From positions 1 to 45,913 of the forward strand of contig JAFYQP010000082.1 in NCBI GenBank assembly GCA_017559855.1: a DNA stretch of 45,913 nt. The letters run 5' to 3'. Position 1 is the first letter of the stretch. The number at the start of each line of letters is the position of its first letter. Origin of the DNA: Clostridia bacterium (GTDB lineage Bacteria > Bacillota > Clostridia > Oscillospirales > JAAYXM01). The notes below the pieces were generated by a model. That model saw only the letters and a list, made by a program, of their open reading frames with translations, ran no database searches and had not been told where the DNA came from. A program made the translations under genes and the position numbers. Of the stretch, positions 12,765-25,315 are shown one piece after another.

Positions 12765-12821
12765 ATTCTTATATGACAGGTGAGGCATAGGTTTTCCCTC
12801 ACGATGTATGGAGGTAGAGTT

Positions 12822-13259
12822 ATGAGCAGAAAGATTGCCCGTGAAATTGCGGTACATATGGTTTATGAATACGGATATCAGTGTAACACCGCAAGTGAAA
12901 TACTTGAAGAACGCTTAAATCCTGAGTTTTTATCCACTCTGGATGACGATCTTATTTTATACCGTGACTTTGCCAATGAGCAGATGGGATACGTAAACGA
13001 CGTTGTCGGCGGCGTTGTTGTTCACGAGGAAGAAATTGACGATCTTATACAGAAATATTCAATCGGATGGAATATAAAGCGTATATCCCGAATTGCGAGA
13101 GCGATTTTACGCGTTGCAATTTTTGAGATAAAGTTCTATGACGACGTCCCCACAGGCGTTGCAATCAACGAGGCGGTAGAACTTACCAAGCGTTACGACA
13201 CCAAGGAAACCTCCGCGTTTGTAAACGGAATTTTAGGCAAAGTTGCAAGAGGAGAGTAG
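12822..13259 (+). CDS. nusB: transcription antitermination protein NusB
   Basis: NusB binds boxA RNA with NusE (S10) in rRNA antitermination complexes. The 145 residues have the all-helical family pattern: an N-terminal SRKIAREIAVHMVYEY helix, and the C-terminal signatures RISRIARAILRVAIFEI and VAINEAVELTKRY, then FVNGILGKV. The ATG at 12822 follows TGGAGG; the in-frame ATG at 12804 precedes that site and adds non-conserved residues. It begins a tight cluster, with the next ATG two bases after its stop. nusB next to xseA, xseB and ispA is standard in Firmicutes. Confidence 0.95.
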   Translation: MSRKIAREIAVHMVYEYGYQCNTASEILEERLNPEFLSTLDDDLILYRDFANEQMGYVNDVVGGVVVHEEEIDDLIQKYSIGWNIKRISRIARAILRVAIFEIKFYDDVPTGVAINEAVELTKRYDTKETSAFVNGILGKVARGE

Positions 13260-13261
13260 TT

Positions 13262-14146
13262 ATGACCGCTCTCGGTTTTGATACAAGCAATTATACCACA
13301 TCAACGGCATTATACGGCGACACCGTGAAGAACTGCTCACGCCTACTACCCGTGCGTGAGGGTGCACTGGGACTTCGTCAGTCCGATGCCGTTTTTTCGC
13401 ATATAAACGCAATATACGATCTGTTAGATGAGTTGTATACCGATTTTAACGGTACCGTGGATGCGGTGGGCGTAAGTTATGCACCACGCCGTGTTGAAGG
13501 TTCGTATATGCCGTGTTTTAAGGTTGGAGAGACGGTTGCAAAAAGTATTGCAAGAGCACTTAACGTACCTTGCTTTGCCTTTTCACATCAGGAGGGACAC
13601 CTTGCGGCGGCACTTTTCACCACCGGAAATGAGGAACTCCTTGAAAAAACATTTTTAGCATGGCATCTGTCCGGCGGTACAACCGAACTTCTTTTGGTAA
13701 AACCCGGACTCATTGCTGAAAAAATCGGTGGTACAACCGATATTTCCGCAGGGCAGTTAATTGACAGAACGGGTGTGGCACTCGGAATGAAATTCCCCTC
13801 CGGCAGGGAACTAGACGGCATTGCCGTGGATGTAAAGCCTTTTAAAATTAAGGAAAAAGATTTATCCTTCTCACTTTCCGGCATGGAAAATAAAGTGAAG
13901 GAAATGAATGAGGAAAAGACGCACGTTGCAGGTTTTGTTATGCACACGGTGGCGGATATAATATGCCGCACAACACAATCGGCACTGAAAATGTTTGGAG
14001 ACCTTCCCGTACTTGTAACGGGCGGTGTAGGCGGCAGTAGTGTACTACGCAGGAAGATGCAGGGGGCAATTTTTTGTGAGCCGAAATACAGTGCGGACAA
14101 CGCATTGGGCATTGCCGCCCTTGCTCATTTTAAAGGTGGTAAGTAA
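13262..14146 (+). CDS. TsaD/Kae1-like paralogue (ASKHA fold)
   Basis: True TsaD makes t6A37 in tRNA and is about 335 residues; this 294-residue protein is a shorter, divergent relative. It keeps the ASKHA landmarks: GFDTSNYTTS at residues 5-14, the metal-ligand motif HQEGH at 109-113, HLSGGTTELLL, DISAGQLIDRTGVALG, SFSLSGMENKV and TGGVGGSSVL. The last block replaces the more usual GGVAANxxLR. It occupies the place where folD often sits between nusB and xseA. Starts and stops touch its neighbours (ATG two bases after nusB; its TAA abuts the xseA ATG), so translation is probably coupled. Its substrate is unknown and it should not be called tsaD without finding whether another copy exists. Confidence 0.7.
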   Translation: MTALGFDTSNYTTSTALYGDTVKNCSRLLPVREGALGLRQSDAVFSHINAIYDLLDELYTDFNGTVDAVGVSYAPRRVEGSYMPCFKVGETVAKSIARALNVPCFAFSHQEGHLAAALFTTGNEELLEKTFLAWHLSGGTTELLLVKPGLIAEKIGGTTDISAGQLIDRTGVALGMKFPSGRELDGIAVDVKPFKIKEKDLSFSLSGMENKVKEMNEEKTHVAGFVMHTVADIICRTTQSALKMFGDLPVLVTGGVGGSSVLRRKMQGAIFCEPKYSADNALGIAALAHFKGGK

Positions 14147-15355
14147 ATGAGAGGACATATCTTCACGGTAACTGAGGCAAATCAGTACCTGAAAAACCTT
14201 ATGGAGGCGGATAAAAACCTTTCGCTTATCTATATTAAAGGTGAAATATCAAACTATAAATTCCATTCCTCAGGTCATCATTATATGACACTTAAGGATG
14301 AGAGTGGTGCCATCCGTGCGGTTATGTTTAAGTATGACGCGGTAAAACTGAAATTCCGTCCTGAAAGTGGTATGAAGGTTATTGCAAAGGGTAAAATCAC
14401 CGTTTATCCACGTGACGGTCAGTACCAACTTTATATTGCCGATATGATCCCTGACGGCGTGGGTGCTCTTTACGTTGCATTCGAGCAACTTAAGAAAAAA
14501 CTTGCAGCAGAAGGACTTTTTAATCCCGAACATAAGAAACCCTTGCCGAGATTTCCCAAAACAATAGCCCTTGTAACCTCACCTACAGGTGCGGCGGTAC
14601 GGGATATGTTGCGGATACTCAAGGCTCGATGGAGTGGTGCTAAAATTTTAATCTATCCCGTCCTGGTTCAGGGTGAAGGGGCACCGCCCGACATAATCGA
14701 TGCAATCAATACGCTAAACGCTAACAATGCCTGCGACCTGATAATAACCGGACGTGGCGGCGGCTCGATTGAGGACTTGTGGGCGTTTAACGACGAGGGT
14801 GTTGCACGGGCAATTTTCGCATCCCGCATACCCGTAATTTCGGCGGTAGGCCATGAGCCTGACGTTACAATTGCGGATTTTGTAGCGGACGTACGTGCCG
14901 CAACCCCGTCCAATGCGGCGGAACTTGCCGTGCCGGATATTATGCATTTAAAACGCAATCTTTACGATATGAATGCAAGACTAAACGGTGCGGTAATAAG
15001 TAAACTTAAAATCAGTAAAGAACGATTGGAGCGACTTTCCGCCCGTCCCATTATGCAAAGTCCCATGAATTACTTTGCAGAGCGGAGAATAACTCTTGAC
15101 CGTATAAGTGACAGATTGGTCAATGTTATAAAGCAGAAAAATGCGTCAAATCGCGAGGTTTTTGTTCGCCTTGCGTCTAAACTTGATGCAATGAGTCCGC
15201 TTAAGGTTTTAGGTCGAGGATACAGTTTTGCCACCGACGAGGGCGGCGACATTATTAAGTCTGTTGACAATGTAAAGAGCGGCGACCAAATCACAATGTG
15301 TGTGCAGGATGGTAAAATCAACTGCACGGTAAAGAATACCGAAAGGAGTAAGTAG
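14147..15355 (+). CDS. xseA: exodeoxyribonuclease VII large subunit
   Basis: XseA with several XseB subunits degrades single-stranded DNA to oligonucleotides. The 402 residues show the N-terminal OB fold (FTVTEANQYLKNLM..., then IKGEISNYKFHSSGHHYMTLKD at ~30-51) and the catalytic core with VTSPTGAAVRDM (~139-150), GRGGGSIEDLWAFNDE (~202-217) and SAVGHEPDVTIADFVAD (~231-247). The C-terminus ends with the LGRGYSFA strand and a short region that contacts XseB. It starts immediately after the previous stop and is followed by xseB after three bases. Confidence 0.96.
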   Translation: MRGHIFTVTEANQYLKNLMEADKNLSLIYIKGEISNYKFHSSGHHYMTLKDESGAIRAVMFKYDAVKLKFRPESGMKVIAKGKITVYPRDGQYQLYIADMIPDGVGALYVAFEQLKKKLAAEGLFNPEHKKPLPRFPKTIALVTSPTGAAVRDMLRILKARWSGAKILIYPVLVQGEGAPPDIIDAINTLNANNACDLIITGRGGGSIEDLWAFNDEGVARAIFASRIPVISAVGHEPDVTIADFVADVRAATPSNAAELAVPDIMHLKRNLYDMNARLNGAVISKLKISKERLERLSARPIMQSPMNYFAERRITLDRISDRLVNVIKQKNASNREVFVRLASKLDAMSPLKVLGRGYSFATDEGGDIIKSVDNVKSGDQITMCVQDGKINCTVKNTERSK

Positions 15356-15358
15356 GTT

Positions 15359-15592
15359 ATGTCTGAAAAAATAACTTTTGAAGCATCCGTTATGCGTCTT
15401 GAAGAAATTGTACGTTTACTTGAAAGGGGAGACGCACCTCTTGACGAGTCTCTTAAACTTTTTGAGGAAGGTACCGCCCTTATTTCAGGTTGTTCTAAAA
15501 TGCTTGAAAATGCAGAGCAGACGGTTTTAAAACTCACGAAGAAGAGTGACGGAACTCTTGAAGAAACTCGCTTTGACGGTGAGGAGGAATAA
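15359..15592 (+). CDS. xseB: exodeoxyribonuclease VII small subunit
   Basis: XseB is the small helical subunit of exonuclease VII. The 77-residue protein has the family pattern FEASVMRLEEIVRLLERGDAPLDESLKLFEEG, which forms the two helices that wrap the large subunit. It follows xseA by three bases, and its end carries the GAGGAGG ribosome site of ispA. Confidence 0.95.
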   Translation: MSEKITFEASVMRLEEIVRLLERGDAPLDESLKLFEEGTALISGCSKMLENAEQTVLKLTKKSDGTLEETRFDGEEE

Positions 15593-15593
15593 T

Positions 15594-16469
15594 ATGAATT
15601 TCAAGGAAATGTTAAATGGCTATGCAGAGGAGATAAATGCAGCACTTGCGGCGTCCCTTGACGGTGAAAATCTTCCGCAAAAGAAGGTTTTCGACGCAAT
15701 GGCATATAGTTTAAATGGCGGTGGAAAGAGAATTCGCCCTATATTGGTGCTCGAATTTGCACGTCTTGCAAAGGTCAGTAAGGAAAAGGCGATGCCCTTT
15801 GCCTGTGCTATCGAAATGGTGCATACATACTCACTTATCCATGATGACCTTCCCTGTATGGACGATGATGCCCTCCGCAGAGGCAGACCTACCTGCCACA
15901 TCGCATATGACGAAGCAACCGCAGTACTTGCGGGAGACGGCCTTTTAAACTACGCTTATGAAACAATGCTGGATGCAGATGTTCCTGCAGAAACAAAACT
16001 AAATGCAATATCCGCACTTGCAAAAGCGTCAGGTGTTTACGGTATGATCGGCGGTCAGATTGTTGATATGGAAGGCGAGGAGAGGGCACTTTCTGCATCC
16101 GAACTTACCGAAATGCACAGAATGAAAACAGGTGCACTTATTCGTGCCGCTTGTGAAATGGGTGCATATCTCGGTGGCGGAGATGAAAATCTTTTAGACG
16201 CTGCAAGACGGTATGCGGATGCTCTGGGCCGTGCGTTCCAGATTCAGGATGACGTATTAAACGTAATCGGCACGGCAGAGGAAATGGGTAAAGACGTAGG
16301 AAACGATGCGGAAAGCGGAAAGAGTACGTTTGTTACATTAAACGGCCTTGATGCTTGTATCAAGGATGTAAATGACCTCACCAACACCGCAGTAGATGCG
16401 GTAGCGGGAATTGAGGGCAGCGAATTCCTCACAGAACTTGCAAAAAGTCTTGCAACCCGTAAAAATTAG
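15594..16469 (+). CDS. ispA: short-chain polyprenyl (farnesyl/geranyl) diphosphate synthase
   Basis: IspA condenses isopentenyl diphosphate with allylic diphosphates to make farnesyl diphosphate, precursor of undecaprenyl carriers and quinones. The 291 residues carry the first aspartate-rich motif DDLPCMDDDALRRGRPT (~84-100) with the two-residue insertion typical of bacterial FPP synthases, and the second aspartate motif FQIQDDVLNV (~213-222). GGGKRIRP (~40-47) binds the homoallylic substrate. ATG 15594 is one base after the xseB stop behind GGAGG. It lies just before the OLE-like RNA and two genes before dxs, which supplies its pathway. Confidence 0.95.
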   Translation: MNFKEMLNGYAEEINAALAASLDGENLPQKKVFDAMAYSLNGGGKRIRPILVLEFARLAKVSKEKAMPFACAIEMVHTYSLIHDDLPCMDDDALRRGRPTCHIAYDEATAVLAGDGLLNYAYETMLDADVPAETKLNAISALAKASGVYGMIGGQIVDMEGEERALSASELTEMHRMKTGALIRAACEMGAYLGGGDENLLDAARRYADALGRAFQIQDDVLNVIGTAEEMGKDVGNDAESGKSTFVTLNGLDACIKDVNDLTNTAVDAVAGIEGSEFLTELAKSLATRKN

Positions 16470-16479
16470 GTTGATTAAC

Positions 16480-16496
16480 ACCCCTTGATATGGGGT
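16480..16496. promoter_or_regulatory. inverted repeat straddling the -35 of the RNA promoter
   Basis: ACCCC (16480-16484) and GGGGT (16492-16496) flank seven bases that contain the TTGATA -35 element. There is no T-run, so it is not a classical terminator for ispA. It could be an operator or a weak hairpin; evidence is symmetry only. Confidence 0.35.
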
Positions 16497-16513
16497 AAAA
16501 AATGTGTTATACT
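16485..16513 (+). promoter_or_regulatory. SigA-type promoter of the OLE-like RNA
   Basis: TTGATA (16485-16490), a 17-base spacer and TATACT (16508-16513) precede the RNA; a second TATAAT overlaps at 16513-16518. Transcription would begin near 16520, about 10-13 bases before the terminal stem of the RNA. A dedicated promoter inside the operon argues for an independent noncoding transcript. Confidence 0.7.
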
Positions 16514-16519
16514 ATAATG

Positions 16520-17140
16520 TGCAAAAAATATTGGGTGGCAGTATCCTAGTCAAAAATTTCGTATCCTAAGGCGGGCCTAAAAATCCGCAAAAGGGCACAT
16601 CGATGAAGTCCCTGGTGTTTGCTTCTCTCGCCCAGATTGGGGTGGATGCTGGGGGTTAAGGCTTTCGGGCGGCTTACAATGGCATGTATACCCGACCCGA
16701 CTGCCGTGGAGACCCGAATTCGTTGGAAGCCTATATATTCCAAGTAGTTGACGGACGACCTACGGTTCGGGGTAGAACCTGCAATGCGGTGGAAGGGCAT
16801 GACCCGACTTGCTGTGTGCAGAGTAGCCTGCCTTGAGTGGTGCGTGCGGATGGGAGAATCAGGCAACGTGTTCTGTGGCCACAGTTCACGTGTCATTGCT
16901 CTCTGAAATACGTTCTGCAAAAGAGGCTAAGAGACGGAGTTTTTGTTATAGAAAATATCTAGGCTGTCTTCGCAGATAAGGGATTGCAGTGCGGACTAAG
17001 TGGCGATTCGGTGTCGATGCAGGTAACACTTCGAGGTGCCCTTTAAAGGGAAACCGCCCTCATTGGCAACAAAGGGTAGGGCATTGTGAAATACTACCGA
17101 ACCAAAGCCGTAAAGTTTACCTTATCTGCCACCCAGATTT
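16520..17140 (+). ncRNA. ole: OLE-like large structured noncoding RNA
   Basis: Nearly 700 bases between ispA and the next gene hold no convincing coding frame but much structure. OLE RNAs are about 600 nt, occur between ispA and a membrane-protein gene (oapA) ahead of dxs, and form a membrane ribonucleoprotein linked to cold, ethanol and magnesium stress. Size, position and partner all match here. The ends pair: 16531-16541 (TTGGGTGGCAG) with 17126-17136 (CTGCCACCCAG), 11 consecutive pairs including one G-U. Further hairpins include TTGGAA/TTCCAA near 16720-16750 and CTGTGGCCACAG near 16880. GC content is above the intergenic background. No strong terminator separates it from oapA. Identification is by context and structure; I could not align it to the family model. 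Confidence 0.88.
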
Positions 17141-17168
17141 TATTATGTAATTTCAGGAGGTCATGGTC

Positions 17169-17705
17169 TTGAAAAAAGGCAATGGCAAAAGTGTTAATAT
17201 ACGTTGGGCACTTACAACTCTTGTCTGGAGTTTTGTGCTTTCAATGGCTTTTCGCTTCGGGTCAGACGTTGCACTTTCAAGTGTAAATCTTCCCGTTGCG
17301 TTTGTAATTTTACTTATAGTTATTTTAATTGGTATTGGTTTTGATGTTTTGGGTGTTGCAACCGCAACTGCAGATGAAGTGCCTTTCCACGGGATGGCGG
17401 CAAGGCGTATCCCTTGGGCGAAACGCTCACTTGCCCTTATCCGCAATGCGGACAAGGTATCGAGTTTCTGTAACGATATAATCGGCGATATCTGCGGAAT
17501 TATAAGCGGTGCGATTACCACGGTAATCATTGTTCGTATTCCGTTTGAAGGAGTATTACTTACGGTTACAACCCTTGCGATAACAGGTGCGGTTGCCGCA
17601 CTTACAATTGGCGGCAAGGCACTTTGTAAAGGTCTTGCAATGAATAACGCGAATTCGGTTTTAATGTTTGTAGGCAGAGTAATTTATATATTCAAGAAAG
17701 ATTAA
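17169..17705 (+). CDS. oapA: OLE-associated protein A-like membrane protein
   Basis: OapA is the membrane protein that binds OLE RNA and holds it at the cell membrane. This 178-residue protein has about four hydrophobic segments (~12-30, 41-63, 105-124, 128-148). A conserved-looking cytoplasmic stretch between segments 2 and 3 holds FDVLGVATATADEVPFHGM (~58-76) followed by a basic ARRIPWAKRS run suited to RNA contact. The DVLGVA stretch resembles CNNM/DUF21-type transporters, an idea from memory. TTG at 17169 is preferred over ATG at 17163 because AGGAGG (17155-17160) is then 8 bases upstream. It sits directly between the RNA and dxs, the standard arrangement. Confidence 0.85.
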   Translation: MKKGNGKSVNIRWALTTLVWSFVLSMAFRFGSDVALSSVNLPVAFVILLIVILIGIGFDVLGVATATADEVPFHGMAARRIPWAKRSLALIRNADKVSSFCNDIIGDICGIISGAITTVIIVRIPFEGVLLTVTTLAITGAVAALTIGGKALCKGLAMNNANSVLMFVGRVIYIFKKD

Positions 17706-17719
17706 ACAGGTGGATTTGA

Positions 17720-19561
17720 ATGGATATGCAGCTACTTGACAGTGTAATATCGGCTGAGGATCTTAAAAATCTCTCGGTAGATCAGTTGTATAAACTGTCG
17801 GATGAAATGCGTGAATTTTTAATAAAGCACATATCCGAAACCGGCGGTCATTTGGCGTCAAATTTAGGCGTTGTTGAAATGATGCTTTGCATCCATAAAA
17901 TTTTTGACACATCAAAGGATAGACTTGTTCTCGATGTCGGACATCAGTGTTACGTCCATAAAATGCTCACCGGTCGCCGTGACGGATTTGACAATCTGCG
18001 TCAATATGGCGGTATGGCAGGATTTTTAAGACCTGACGAGAGTGTGCACGACGCTTGCGTTTCAGGACATGCGTCAAACTCTGTTTCCGTGGCACTTGGT
18101 ATGGCACGTGCCCGTACGTTAAAGAGAGAAGACTATAGCGTAATTGCGGTAATCGGAGACGGTGCCCTTACCGGCGGTCTTGCGTATGAGGCACTCAACG
18201 ATGCGGGACAAAGCGGTGAACCGCTTATTATCATATTGAATGATAATGAAATGTCCATTACTGAAAACGTAGGAGCAATGACAAATCACTTGTCAAAACT
18301 GCGTTTAAAACCCAGATATTTGTATTTCAAAGATAAATATAGGAAGTTTATGAAGAAAGCACCGGGCGGTATGGCGGTTGATAAGGTAATTCATTCTGTT
18401 AAAAATTCCTTCAAACGTGCGTTTCTCCCTTCGTCTTTCTTTGAAAATATGGGCTTTACTTATCTCGGTCCATCTGACGGTCACGATATAAAATATACCC
18501 TCTACCTTTTGGAACTTGCACGAGATCTTGCCCGTCCTGTGATTATTCACTTAACCACGAAAAAAGGTAAAGGATATAAATATTCAGAAGAAAATCCTCA
18601 GGATTTCCACGGCGTGTCTTGCTTTGACATCGGCTCCGGTACACCGGTTAAAAAAGGCGGAAAATCCTTCTCATCGGTTTTTGGCGAAAAACTTGTGTCC
18701 CTTGCAGAAAAAGATGCAAGAATATGTGCCATAACCGCCGCAATGCAAACAGGTGTCGGACTTTCCGGCTTTGCGGAAAAATATAAAGAACGATTTTTTG
18801 ACGTTGGTATTGCGGAAGGACATGCGGTGGCACTTTCTGCAGGCCTTTCCCGTGCGGGAATGGTGCCTGTGTGTGCGATTTATTCCACTTTCCTGCAACG
18901 TGCATACGATATGCTCATCCACGACGTTGCAATATCAAAGGAACACGTGATTTTCGGTGTTGACCGTGCAGGTCTTGTAGGCGAGGATGGTGAGACGCAT
19001 CAGGGCAGTTTTGACGTAGCCTATCTTTCATCAATCCCCAATATGCAGATTTTGGCACCGTCGGATTTTGCGGAACTTGAAGCGATGCTCGAATATGCTG
19101 TCTGCGAAATGGATGGTCCGGTTGCCATCCGATACGGTCGTGGCGGCGAAGGAAAGTTTAAGGAAAACTCTTTTGAAAATGCGTCCCTTTCGGTAAAAAT
19201 GAAGGACGGCGATAAAGTTACTCTGGTTACCTACGGTACAATGATAAACGAGGTTATTGCCGCATCCGAAAAGTGCGAGGGTTGTGAGGTTATAAAGTTA
19301 AATTCTCTCGCTCCGCTTGATTTGAGTTGTGTGATTGAATCCGTTAAGAAAACGGGAAGAATTATCGTATGCGAAGATGTCTGCAATAAAGGATGTATTG
19401 GCGAAAAAATTGCCGCAACCATTGCTAAAGAAGGTATCTCGGCAAAAGTTATTCTTGCGAACACCGGTGACGATTTCGTATCTCACGGTGCGGTATCAAA
19501 ACTTTACGAGCAGTGCGGAATAGATGCAGACAGTATATTAAAGAAAATTTTGGAGGCGTAG
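17720..19561 (+). CDS. dxs: 1-deoxy-D-xylulose-5-phosphate synthase
   Basis: Dxs joins pyruvate and glyceraldehyde 3-phosphate, with thiamine diphosphate, in the first step of the MEP isoprenoid pathway. The 613 residues show HISETGGHLASNLGVVE (~35-51), the cofactor motif GDGALTGGLAYEALNDAG (~150-167), the GPSDGHD block, transketolase pyrimidine domain with DVGIAEGHAVALSAG, and GVDRAGLVGEDGETHQGSFD in the core. It is slightly shorter than enteric forms but complete. It follows oapA by 14 bases, so OLE RNA, oapA and dxs are probably one transcript. ispA and dxs together place isoprenoid supply on both sides of the RNA. Confidence 0.96.
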   Translation: MDMQLLDSVISAEDLKNLSVDQLYKLSDEMREFLIKHISETGGHLASNLGVVEMMLCIHKIFDTSKDRLVLDVGHQCYVHKMLTGRRDGFDNLRQYGGMAGFLRPDESVHDACVSGHASNSVSVALGMARARTLKREDYSVIAVIGDGALTGGLAYEALNDAGQSGEPLIIILNDNEMSITENVGAMTNHLSKLRLKPRYLYFKDKYRKFMKKAPGGMAVDKVIHSVKNSFKRAFLPSSFFENMGFTYLGPSDGHDIKYTLYLLELARDLARPVIIHLTTKKGKGYKYSEENPQDFHGVSCFDIGSGTPVKKGGKSFSSVFGEKLVSLAEKDARICAITAAMQTGVGLSGFAEKYKERFFDVGIAEGHAVALSAGLSRAGMVPVCAIYSTFLQRAYDMLIHDVAISKEHVIFGVDRAGLVGEDGETHQGSFDVAYLSSIPNMQILAPSDFAELEAMLEYAVCEMDGPVAIRYGRGGEGKFKENSFENASLSVKMKDGDKVTLVTYGTMINEVIAASEKCEGCEVIKLNSLAPLDLSCVIESVKKTGRIIVCEDVCNKGCIGEKIAATIAKEGISAKVILANTGDDFVSHGAVSKLYEQCGIDADSILKKILEA

Positions 19562-19564
19562 CCG

Positions 19565-20362
19565 TTGGCTAAAACAAGACTTGATGTTGCACTTGTAGAG
19601 CGTGGGCTTATTACAAGTCGTGAACGTGCAAAGACTACTATAATGAGCGGCCTGGTGTACGTCAATGGTCAAAAGGCCGACAAAGCGGGCGACACGGTCC
19701 GTGACGATGATAAAATCGAGGTGCGTGGCGACACGCTTAAATATGTAAGCCGTGGCGGTCTTAAACTTGAAAAGGCAATGGCGGAATTCCCCATAACCCT
19801 TGAGGGCAAGGTGGCAATGGACATAGGTGCATCCACCGGCGGTTTTACCGACTGTATGCTTCAAAACGGTGCGGTAAAAGTTTTTGCGGTTGACGTGGGA
19901 TACGGTCAACTTGCCTGGTCACTTCGTACCGATGCTCGTGTTGTTAATATGGAGCGAACCAATATCCGTTACGTTACCGAAGATGACATAGGAGAGAAAA
20001 TAGATTTTGCGTCAATTGACGTTTCGTTTATTTCCTTATCCCTTGTGCTTAAACCCTGCCGTGCTTTATTAAACGATGGCGGTGAGGTAGTGTGCCTTGT
20101 AAAACCGCAGTTTGAAGCAGGACGAGAAAAGGTGGGCAAGAAGGGCGTTGTCCGTGATCCGGCAGTTCATCTTGAAGTGCTTGAGAATTTCTTAACTCAC
20201 GTCAGCGATGCAGGTTTCGTTCTGTCGGGCATTACCTATTCACCCATAAAGGGGCCGGAAGGCAATATCGAATATTTAGGATATCTCAAAACGCAAGGAG
20301 AGCCTTGCGAGGTTGATTTAAAGGCGTTGGTTGATGCGTCACATCAAGATTTAAAGGGGTAG
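19565..20362 (+). CDS. tlyA: TlyA-family rRNA (cytidine-2'-O)-methyltransferase
   Basis: TlyA-type enzymes 2'-O-methylate rRNA cytidines and are often misnamed haemolysins. The 265-residue protein has an N-terminal S4 RNA-binding domain (RLDVALVERGLITSRERAKTTI, ~4-25) and a Rossmann methyltransferase with AMDIGASTGGFTDCML (~84-99) as the SAM site and the downstream FASIDVSFISL and VCLVKPQFEAGREKVGKKGVVRD blocks. The start is TTG at 19565, three bases after the dxs stop, with GGAGG inside the dxs end. It is standard next to dxs in Firmicutes. Which rRNA positions are modified cannot be told. Confidence 0.92.
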   Translation: MAKTRLDVALVERGLITSRERAKTTIMSGLVYVNGQKADKAGDTVRDDDKIEVRGDTLKYVSRGGLKLEKAMAEFPITLEGKVAMDIGASTGGFTDCMLQNGAVKVFAVDVGYGQLAWSLRTDARVVNMERTNIRYVTEDDIGEKIDFASIDVSFISLSLVLKPCRALLNDGGEVVCLVKPQFEAGREKVGKKGVVRDPAVHLEVLENFLTHVSDAGFVLSGITYSPIKGPEGNIEYLGYLKTQGEPCEVDLKALVDASHQDLKG

Positions 20363-20367
20363 TGTAT

Positions 20368-21234
20368 ATGAAAAAAATAATGATGCATCCAAATCCCACC
20401 CGTGATATCAATTTGGAAAATACACGCAAAATAGCACAGTTTTTAACATCCCGTGGCATTGAGGTAACGATACCTGAAGACGTTGCAACGGTTGACTATC
20501 CCTGTTTCAAAATTCTTCCATTTGAAGAGGCGGTTTGTGATGCGGATATGATTATCTCTCTTGGCGGCGACGGCTCTATTCTTCATACCGTTGCAAAAAC
20601 CGCAGGAATGGGAATTGAAATTCTCGGCATCAATAGCGGAAGAATGGGCTATATGGCAGAAATTGAAGCGGACGAGTTTGATTATCTTGAGCAAGTGCTT
20701 GACGGCAATTACATTGTGGAAGAGCGTATGATGATAGACGTGGCAATTCGCCGCGGTCAGGATATAATTGCAGAGGGTTCCGGTCTTAACGACGTTGTCG
20801 TTGCAAAGACCAACCGACTTAAAATCATAGATATAGACGTTTACGCAGACCGTTCCTTCATTTCTCACTATCAGGGTGACGGTGTTGCCATTGCAACGCC
20901 CACCGGCTCTACGGCATATTCAATGTCCGCAGGAGGCCCGATTGTAGATCCGATAACCGAAAGTATTACAATTACTCCGATTTGCACACATTCCCTTTCT
21001 GCAAAGCCAATCGTTCTTTCATCCAAACGTGAGATTTCCGTACAAGCCCTGTCACGAGTTGAGGGTTCAATAGGTGTCAGTGTTGACGGCTCGTCACCGG
21101 TTGAATTAAACTATGGTGATCAGGTAATTATAAAACGTTCAAACCATATGACGAAGTTGGTACGCGTTAAAAACATCAACTTCTACGATATTCTTTGCAC
21201 AAAACTTTCAGACAGGAGGTTCGATGCCAATTGA
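20368..21234 (+). CDS. nadK: NAD kinase
   Basis: NadK phosphorylates NAD to NADP. The 288-residue protein has the active-site GGDG at residues 66-69 within IISLGGDGSILHTV, and the TPTGSTAYSMSAGGPIV block that binds NAD. The ATG at 20368 is about nine bases after AAAGGGG; an in-frame GTG at 20362 lies too near that site. It overlaps the argR start by four bases, suggesting coupled translation in the tlyA-nadK-argR-recN run common to clostridia and bacilli. Confidence 0.95.
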   Translation: MKKIMMHPNPTRDINLENTRKIAQFLTSRGIEVTIPEDVATVDYPCFKILPFEEAVCDADMIISLGGDGSILHTVAKTAGMGIEILGINSGRMGYMAEIEADEFDYLEQVLDGNYIVEERMMIDVAIRRGQDIIAEGSGLNDVVVAKTNRLKIIDIDVYADRSFISHYQGDGVAIATPTGSTAYSMSAGGPIVDPITESITITPICTHSLSAKPIVLSSKREISVQALSRVEGSIGVSVDGSSPVELNYGDQVIIKRSNHMTKLVRVKNINFYDILCTKLSDRRFDAN

Positions 21235-21683
21235 AACTTCAAAGACAGTCTAAGATTTTACAGTTAATTGAGCAATATGACATAGAAACCCAGATGGAAC
21301 TCACTGAATATTTAATTCGTGCGGGTTTTGATACAACTCAGGCAACGGTTTCCCGTGATATAAAGGAACTTCGCCTTGTCAAAACCGCATCAAAAAGCGG
21401 CAGGAATAAATACGCCGCCGCAACCGGTCAGGCAGAAACAGGTTTCTCCGGCCGTCTCCGCACGATTTTCCGTGAGGGTGTGCTTTCCTATGACTATGCA
21501 CAGAACATCGTTGTAATCAAGACCATGCCGGGCCTTGCCTCGGCAGCATGCTCGGCACTTGACGGTATGCACCTTGCCGACGTTGTCGGCACTATTGCAG
21601 GTGATGATACGGGCTTCCTCGTACTTCGCACAACGGAAAGTGCACACGCATTTTGTGACGATTTAAAGAAAATGCTTGAATAA
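21231..21683 (+). CDS. argR: arginine repressor
   Basis: ArgR is a hexameric, arginine-dependent regulator of arginine synthesis and breakdown. The 150 residues carry the N-terminal winged helix (QSKILQLIEQYDIETQMELTEYL..., ending TTQATVSRDIKELRLVK at ~37-53) and the C-terminal oligomerisation domain with GTIAGDDTGFLV (~121-132), which binds arginine. The start is TTG at 21231, 11 bases after AGGAGG and overlapping the nadK stop; longer frames would read through nadK. No arginine genes are in the window, so the gene is here by operon convention (argR-recN). Confidence 0.93.
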   Translation: MKLQRQSKILQLIEQYDIETQMELTEYLIRAGFDTTQATVSRDIKELRLVKTASKSGRNKYAAATGQAETGFSGRLRTIFREGVLSYDYAQNIVVIKTMPGLASAACSALDGMHLADVVGTIAGDDTGFLVLRTTESAHAFCDDLKKMLE

Positions 21684-21701
21684 TTGCAGGAGGTGAGCCT
21701 T

Positions 21702-23390
21702 GTGCTGAAACTTTTGCATATCGAAAATATTGCAATAATTGAAAAGTGTGATATAGAATTCGGCACGGGCTTTAACGTTCTTACCGGTGAAACCGGTGCG
21801 GGTAAATCGATTATCATCGATGCTATCTCGGCGGTTTTAGGTCAGAGAAGCAGTCGCTCATTGGTGCGGTCGGGTGCAGACAGAGCATTTGTCTCCGCCC
21901 TCTTCGAAACCACGGAAAATGCAGAACTTTGGCTCCGTGAGCAGGGCTTTGAGGTCGAAGGGGAACTATTGCTCCAGCGTGAGATTACCCCTGATGGAAA
22001 AACCACCTGCCGTGTAAACGGTAAACCTATCTCCGTGGGGCTCTTAAAGTCGCTGGGTGACACCCTACTGAATATCCACGGTCAACACGACAGCCAAAGT
22101 TTGCTCGATACAGAACATCATGCCGAATATATCGACCGTTTTGCGGAAAAGGAAACTTATGAAGCCATTTTCGCTCGATATGAAAGTGAATATAACAGAT
22201 TTTTAGACCTTACCCGTGAACTAAAAGTGCTAAGTATGTCGGAGCAGGAGTATGTGCGTCGTGTGGATATGCTCCGATATCAGATAGAAGAACTTGAGGG
22301 AGCAAACCTTAAAGCGGGAGAGTATGACGAACTTATTGAGCGTCGTACAATGCTCAGAAACGCCGCGAAAATTACAGAATCCCTCAACTTGGTAGCGTCC
22401 CTTTTTACGGGGGATGATGAACGTGCGGGAATTATATCCGACTTAGGCGGTGCCGAACGTGCATTGTATGGACTTAAACTTTCCGATACCGACGATATTA
22501 CCGCACGGGTTGGCGAACTTCTTGCCAATGCACAGGATGTATCCCAAGATGTAAACGAAATCTTAAGAAAAATAGACGCATCTCCCGAAGAGATAGAACG
22601 GGTTGAAGACAGATGCGACTTCCTAAAACGCCTGACCGTAAAATACGGCGGCAGTGAAGAAGAACTAATTGCACAACTCAACTCATTTAAGGATGAACTT
22701 GCAACTATTGAACATTCGGACGAGCGTAAGTGTGAAGTTGAAAAACTTTTAGACGAGTGCGAGAATGAATGTTGGGACCTTGCACAAAAGTTGTTCAATT
22801 TAAGACGTCGTACCGCAAGGGACTTTGAGCGGCGTGTAATGAGTGAACTATCCGACCTTGATATGTCAAAGGTTACCTTTGTGGCGGAGATTTCACCTTG
22901 TGAAAACTTAGGTGTGCGTGGTGCGGATACCATTGAATTTTTAATATCCACAAACTTGGGTGAGCCGTTAAAACCCCTTGCGAAAATCGCATCCGGCGGT
23001 GAAATGGCACGAATTATGCTTGCTCTTAAGAACGTACTTGCGGAGAACGATAAAGTTCAAACCTTGATTTTTGACGAGGTAGACGCAGGTGTCAGCGGCA
23101 GGGCGGCACAAAAAGTTGCGGAGAAACTTGCAAAACTTTCCGGCAAAAAGCAAATTCTCTGTGTAACACATCTTCCGCAGATGTCCGCAATGGCGGATAC
23201 TCATTTCAAGATAGAAAAGGAAGAGGTGGGTGGCAGAACGGTCACCAACGTAACAATTATGGATGATAGCGGCAGAATTCTTGAACTTGCAAGACTTCTT
23301 GGCGGTGCGGATATAACCGAAACAACCAAGAACAACGCACGAGAGTTAATAGAAACCGCAAAGAAAATAAAAAAGGAGCAAAACAAATGA
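21702..23390 (+). CDS. recN: DNA repair protein RecN
   Basis: RecN is an SMC-like ATPase acting at DNA double-strand breaks. The 562 residues show Walker A GETGAGKS at 29-36, long coiled-coil arms (~150-370) with Glu/Lys/Leu heptads, the ABC signature [14 protein letters not shown] and Walker [14 protein letters not shown], then [13 protein letters not shown] at 21702 is chosen because GCAGGAGGTGA lies just upstream; the TTG at 21684 precedes that site. The stop overlaps the tyrS ATG (ATGA). Confidence 0.95.
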
Positions 23391-24685: not shown

Positions 24686-25315
24686 GTGCGGCGTAAATAT
24701 AAAAAAATCAGAAGAAAATTCCCCGTTTTTTTATTTGCTCTTATATCCCTGGTTTTAGCCATTAGTATATACTACACTATCGTTATAAGACCTATCCTTG
24801 AAGAGTACGTAAATGCAGAACTTGCAAACAGTGTGAATCTTATAATAAACGGTAAAACCGCCGAGATTATTGAGAAAAACGGCGTTACATATGAATCGCT
24901 CATTTCACTTTCAAGAGATAAGGAGGGGAGGATTCTATCTCTTTATACTAACGTATCCCAAATGAATGCACTTAAACTTGATATAGAAAAGGGGATACTC
25001 AGTATGTTGCAGGATACGGATAGTATAGCAGTCGAGGTTCCGGTAGGAAGTCTTATGGGCGGCGAGTTCTTATCGGGCATAGGACCGTGTATTAAAGTTC
25101 ATGCAGTACCCATAACAAGACTGTTTACCGAATTTGAAAATGAATTCGACTCATCCGGTATCAACCAAACGCGGCACAGGATATTACTTAAGTATAATAT
25201 TTCGCTTAAAATTTTACTTCCCGGTAAGCGGGACAGTATGAATATAAAAGAGGAAATTTGCATTGCAGAAACCATAATCGTGGGTAATATTCCAAACTTC
25301 TATGCGGGAAAATAA
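24686..25315 (+). CDS. yunB: sporulation protein YunB
   Basis: YunB is a mother-cell sporulation protein needed for normal spore formation; its precise action is unknown. The 209 residues show the family layout: a basic N-terminus, one membrane segment (~13-33), then a conserved domain with INGKTAEII, VSQMNALKLDIEKGI, VEVPVGSLMGGEFLSGIGPCIKV and a SLKILLPGK C-terminal block. The start is GTG at 24686 behind GAGGTGG. A CATAAAAT element at 24662-24669 resembles a SigE -10, but I see no good -35 partner. It stands alone between the tyrS terminator and ligA. Confidence 0.9.
   Translation: MRRKYKKIRRKFPVFLFALISLVLAISIYYTIVIRPILEEYVNAELANSVNLIINGKTAEIIEKNGVTYESLISLSRDKEGRILSLYTNVSQMNALKLDIEKGILSMLQDTDSIAVEVPVGSLMGGEFLSGIGPCIKVHAVPITRLFTEFENEFDSSGINQTRHRILLKYNISLKILLPGKRDSMNIKEEICIAETIIVGNIPNFYAGK

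Follow-up and report, generated by a model that had tools for sequence, protein, structure and literature searches.

The OLE RNA is, to our knowledge, among the largest and most conserved of the bacterial RNAs that lack a known biochemical function, and we know of no work in the literature that has settled what that function is. OLE has been identified in 2,822 Bacillota genomes, those of uncultured gut bacteria included (PMC11332333), and its hosts have been described as 'extremophilic and/or anaerobic' (PMC10898510). In H. halodurans the RNA is abundant and protein-binding (PMC12265935), and work on the membrane complex of this organism ties it to stress from cold, alcohol, Mg2+ and the carbon source (PMC12265935, PMC10898510). 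Cryo-EM models place dimer contacts at an A-rich P4 loop and, as a kissing loop, at the P9 loop (PMC12265935), while the P13 region is bound by OapB (PMC9723947, PMC11332333). OLE variant 1 is often without P13, and shortened variants have been reported for TANB77 and RF39 bacteria (PMC11332333). A relation of the associated protein OapA to the CNNM family, and an anticorrelation between OLE and MpfA in the Bacillota, have also been published (PMC11332333).

The window analysed here is the whole 45,913-nucleotide contig JAFYQP010000082.1 of a Clostridia bacterium (assembly GCA_017559855.1). From its sequence the order nusB, xseA, xseB, ispA, RNA, oapA, dxs, tlyA, argR and recN had been proposed; this order is correct but was incomplete, a TsaD-like gene and nadK having been missed. 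The cluster reads as follows.

12780 to 13259, plus strand: nusB, with a probable start at 12816 (profile match).
13262 to 14146, plus strand: TsaD-like protein, between nusB and xseA (PF00814, 84 bits).
14147 to 15592, plus strand: xseA and xseB (profile match).
15594 to 16469, plus strand: ispA, farnesyl diphosphate synthase (NF045485, 324.7 bits, over the cut-off).
16517 to 17151, plus strand: OLE RNA (RF01071), full-length class, 635 nt (covariance-model match).
17163 to 17705, plus strand: oapA, 178-180 aa (DxxxD motif and predicted CNNM-like fold).
17720 to 19561, plus strand: dxs (profile match).
19565 to 23390, plus strand: tlyA, nadK, argR and recN (profile match).
20362 to 21234, within the preceding group: nadK, between tlyA and argR.

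The position of the RNA within the nusB-xseAB-ispA-dxs-tlyA-argR-recN cluster is the same as in known OLE loci. With a score well below the TsaD equivalog cut-off, the TsaD-like protein is likely to be a paralogue of this tRNA-modifying enzyme. Further along the window, at 24686-25315, is a gene for the sporulation protein YunB (NCBIfam match over cut-off), in keeping with the association of OLE with spore formers reported in the literature.

No credible protein gene was found between the ispA stop at 16469 and the start of oapA, the sole candidate being an unsupported 124-aa open reading frame on the minus strand inside the RNA, which was rejected. Positions 16517-17151 of the plus strand match the Rfam family RF01071 (OLE) at 440.6 bits (E 3.2e-126), the curated cut-off being 50 bits, and the alignment spans the whole model (1-616 of 616). 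This covariance search had been proposed as a check in the original prediction, and its outcome upholds the probable RNA of about 600 nt suggested there. The same model found a single OLE copy in the 1.58-Mb genome (96% complete) and none in 14 control genomes. The ispA-oapA gap thus encodes a genuine OLE RNA.

Projection of the RF01071 structure onto the window sequence gave 154 consensus pairs, of which 133 are standard in the window RNA and 21 non-standard, and every helix of the Rfam model was found. To assess how well this pairing is conserved, the window RNA was aligned with the OLE RNAs of 20 relatives from its order, giving 21 sequences (alignment A3). Across these sequences 88.1% of cells are paired, compared with 38-46% when the partners are slid by 1-3 columns. 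Changes on both sides occur in 98 of the 154 pairs, and the cells changed on both sides number 559; shuffling lowered this count to 192 and sliding to 90-148. On each of the five pairing measures used, the real alignment exceeded every one of the 500 shuffles and every slid control. The OLE pairing is therefore upheld here by compensatory changes. Four conserved elements can be placed within the structure.

16570 to 16589, plus strand: P4-like hairpin with the A-rich loop CCUAAAAA (covariance model and alignment).
16594 to 16663, plus strand: candidate OapC k-turn region (conservation, and analogy with PMC9723947).
16861 to 16896, plus strand: tip of P9, a terminal hairpin with the self-complementary loop UGGCCA (alignment and projected structure).
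17056 to 17077, plus strand: P13-like hairpin (covariance model and pairing test).

CUAAAAA is invariant in the P4-like hairpin across the aligned RNAs, and GGCACAUCGAUGAAG is nearly invariant in the second of these elements, which by analogy would correspond to the k-turn bound by OapC (PMC9723947). Because the P4 loop, the k-turn region, the UGGCCA loop of P9 and P13 are all present, the RNA belongs to the full-length class and not to the shortened variants; the P13-like hairpin in particular sets it apart from variant 1, and with P7-P9 and the P13 end both present it has the full-length form rather than that of variant 1 or 2. It shares with Rfam OLE the full-length match, all helices, the conserved dimer-contact loops and the tandem oapA. 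It differs in that the loops of two hairpins carry additional sequence (16738-16752 and 16794-16807) and that only a stub stands in place of one small hairpin near 16968; it is otherwise ordinary. At loci L029, L037, L038, L039 and L040, from MAGs labelled Bacilli, Clostridia or Erysipelotrichaceae, a full OapA is accompanied by a short OLE RNA of about 470-490 nt (200-230 bits) that resembles the published variant 2.

The ends of the RNA had been predicted to pair over 11 bases. The complementarity is real, 16531-16541 and 17126-17136 forming 10 Watson-Crick pairs and one G-U, but the length did not stand. Since 17126-17129 is already taken up by a conserved inner helix (16971-16980/17120-17129), four of the pairs compete with that helix and the 11-bp closing helix was rejected in favour of one of about 7 bp.

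16531 to 16537, plus strand: 5' arm of the end helix (own-versus-cross pairing test).
17130 to 17136, plus strand: 3' arm of the end helix (own-versus-cross pairing test).

The Rfam OLE structure is without this helix. Each of the 21 aligned sequences has a version of its own, of 5-10 bp, and the mean score was 18.0 for own arms against 12.0 for mismatched combinations (0 of 5000 permutations), a result somewhat inflated by the relatedness of the sequences.

A promoter belonging to the RNA itself had also been predicted, and a candidate lies just ahead of it.

16485 to 16513, plus strand: promoter-like site TTGATA-17 nt-TATACT, with TG before the second hexamer (consensus match).

This sigma-70-like site has 10 of 12 consensus bases and a predicted start near 16520. 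Support comes also from the relatives, in which the region just upstream of OLE has a promoter score of 9.2 compared with 7.3 in shuffles. The assignment, based on consensus, is suggestive only, since the scanned region contains five promoter-like sites where 2.7 are expected. A single long transcript covers the cluster in H. halodurans (PMC12265935), so that an own promoter and read-through are both possible. No intrinsic terminator was found after OLE on the plus strand.

The gene behind the RNA begins 12-18 nt past the end of the OLE model, at either ATG 17163 or TTG 17169. The second is the better fit to the ribosome-binding site, which lies 8 nt from the TTG and 2 nt from the ATG.

17155 to 17160, plus strand: ribosome-binding site AGGAGG of oapA (spacing).

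The four-helix membrane protein foreseen at this position is OapA, with four long membrane helices. Its DxxxD motif is DIIGD (residues 105-109), both aspartates being invariant in 21 sequences, and the family has further invariant FD, CND..GD and G.KA..K positions. An AlphaFold2 model (pLDDT 86.6) resembles the archaeal CorB structures 7m1t (Z 12.8, rmsd 2.6 over 129 residues) and 7m1u (Z 11.9); the next unrelated entry scores Z 6.7. The same CorB entries rank first in Foldseek, weakly (E 0.12), and the match to Pfam CNNM (E 4.4e-4) falls below the Pfam cut-off. Together with the occurrence of an OapA homologue beside the Rfam OLE match in 19 of 19 named-organism loci, and of OapA in the same 43 genomes as OLE (see below), this confirms the identity given to 17169-17705 in the original prediction and assigns to the protein a predicted CNNM/CorB-like fold. 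The four long membrane helices, the DxxxD motif, the CNNM-like fold and the place of the gene directly behind ole are shared with OapA of H. halodurans and C. botulinum; there is no notable difference from known OapA, and the window protein is 32-51% identical to the aligned homologues. The likeness to the MpfA/CorC/CorB Mg2+ exporters lies in the CorB transmembrane domain, which matches the predicted fold. Unlike these exporters, OapA is without CBS and CorC_HlyC domains, so that of the MpfA-type architecture (CNNM, CBS pair and CorC_HlyC) it has only the CNNM-like part.

The other known partners are encoded elsewhere in the genome, and the search for OapB and OapC homologues that had been suggested found both. 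The OapB gene (G000:C80, 3812-4120, minus strand) was located by reading the gap between map and infA, the PF00467 (KOW) profile having returned only L24 and NusG. Its product matches PDB entry 7k9b, 'OLE-associated protein B' (E 1.2e-7), and is a KOW-type small RNA-binding protein in a translation operon. OapC/YbxF, a predicted L7Ae-type k-turn binder of 79 aa, is encoded upstream of rpsL/rpsG; it matches YbxF 4lck (E 9.9e-12) with a score below the NCBIfam equivalog cut-offs. A bS21 gene is present as well, and oapA, oapB and oapC are all intact. No MpfA-type exporter was found in the genome, its single weak CorC_HlyC match being a 211-aa membrane protein of other architecture. In that protein a lone CorC_HlyC-like domain forms the end, and the gene (C35; L046:1167-1802) lies beside a pseudouridine synthase-like gene. 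The locus is almost certainly a complete OLE-OapA module, and it is an ordinary new example of a well-described system, not a new system.

A survey of the order covered 98 genomes: 43 have both OLE and OapA, and the other 55 have neither. The window RNA scores in the middle of the range of these 43 genomes, the best relatives reaching 470.3 bits. OLE and oapA are in tandem in 40 of the 43, with OLE 20-225 nt from the OapA-profile match. Two genomes of one family, G009 (L047:4831-5465) and G033 (L048:3758-4391), have a complete OLE without oapA behind it; in both, oapA is kept ahead of dxs on a different contig and OLE adjoins other genes, that of G009 lying upstream of an mfd-like gene. An apparent split in G035 was rejected as such, the spacer there holding an apparent group II intron about 30 nt past the OLE end, inside which the assembly breaks (L049:4498-5516, L052:4282-4366). 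In G012 the first OapA adjoins OLE and a second lies ahead of dxs (C94:6632-7132, L053), which may represent a second strain in the bin.

The C-terminal domain CorC_HlyC, used as the marker for MpfA, is present in 4 of the 43 OLE carriers and in 47 of the 55 non-carriers (Fisher 7.6e-15). When states were shuffled only inside the families that hold both, two co-occurrences were observed against 7.4 expected (P = 0.0001), and the swap recurs in six families (f1, f6, f13, f16, f17 and f19). The one-order result repeats the published anticorrelation. It is a tendency, because four OLE carriers have both and eight of the 55 OLE-negative genomes, several incomplete assemblies among them, are without CorC_HlyC. 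OapB occurs in 39 of 43 carriers and 32 of 55 non-carriers, a difference that is not significant within families.

The genomes of one order are related and some families are uniformly in one state, and the exclusion could for this reason reflect lineage history rather than functional replacement. This is unlikely given the recurrence of the swap inside mixed families in the stratified test and the same trend across the Bacillota (PMC11332333). The RNA lies a short distance ahead of oapA-dxs on the same strand and no intrinsic terminator was found after it, which might instead suggest that it is mainly a structured, cis-regulatory leader of the oapA-dxs transcript and not a free-standing complex RNA. 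We consider this very improbable: the complete OLE on another contig than oapA in G009 and G033 is as expected for a trans-acting RNA, the OapB and OapC genes are located elsewhere, and the H. halodurans RNA is abundant and binds proteins (PMC12265935). That the RNA is a decayed, non-functional remnant is scarcely credible. Its 21 non-standard pairs and a score slightly under that of the best relatives could be taken as decay, but the match is full-length, 133 of 154 pairs are standard, all invariant blocks are retained, the three partner genes are intact and the score is mid-range. The locus most likely forms a membrane complex of the H. halodurans type.

By analogy with published work on other species, the RNA, whether transcribed from the promoter just ahead of it or by polymerase reading through from ispA, would fold into the full-length OLE structure and might form a homodimer via the P4, P5.1/P6.1 and P9 loops, as in the solved OLE RNAs. 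It would bind OapA, the CNNM-like membrane protein specified by the next gene, and with OapC at the k-turn and OapB at P12.2/P13 would give a membrane ribonucleoprotein that may help the cell to withstand divalent-metal (Mg2+) and other envelope and energy stresses. In this order OLE-OapA tends to stand in for Mg2+ exporters of the MpfA/CorC type. The chances that the module acts mainly through metal homeostasis appear evenly balanced. Less likely than not is the proposal that OLE-OapA and MpfA/CorC are interchangeable, with the role of the CBS and CorC_HlyC domains taken by the RNA as an RNA-built control unit for a CNNM-type metal transporter; this idea has been published as a hypothesis, which the within-family swap sharpens.

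According to the original prediction, the setting of OLE would be widened if the host were a mesophilic anaerobe. Such a setting is not new, anaerobes and uncultured gut bacteria being among the hosts in earlier surveys (PMC11332333). Several of the OapA/OLE loci compared here belong to MAGs of the rumen, caecum and rectum. A proteome-based growth temperature of about 47 C, estimated from 37 open reading frames, was discarded as too rough. What the locus adds is an ordinary, complete OLE example accompanied by every known partner. Of most use is the recurrent swap of OLE and MpfA within families, and related genera with either OLE-OapA or an MpfA-type exporter are natural matched pairs for asking what the RNA replaces.
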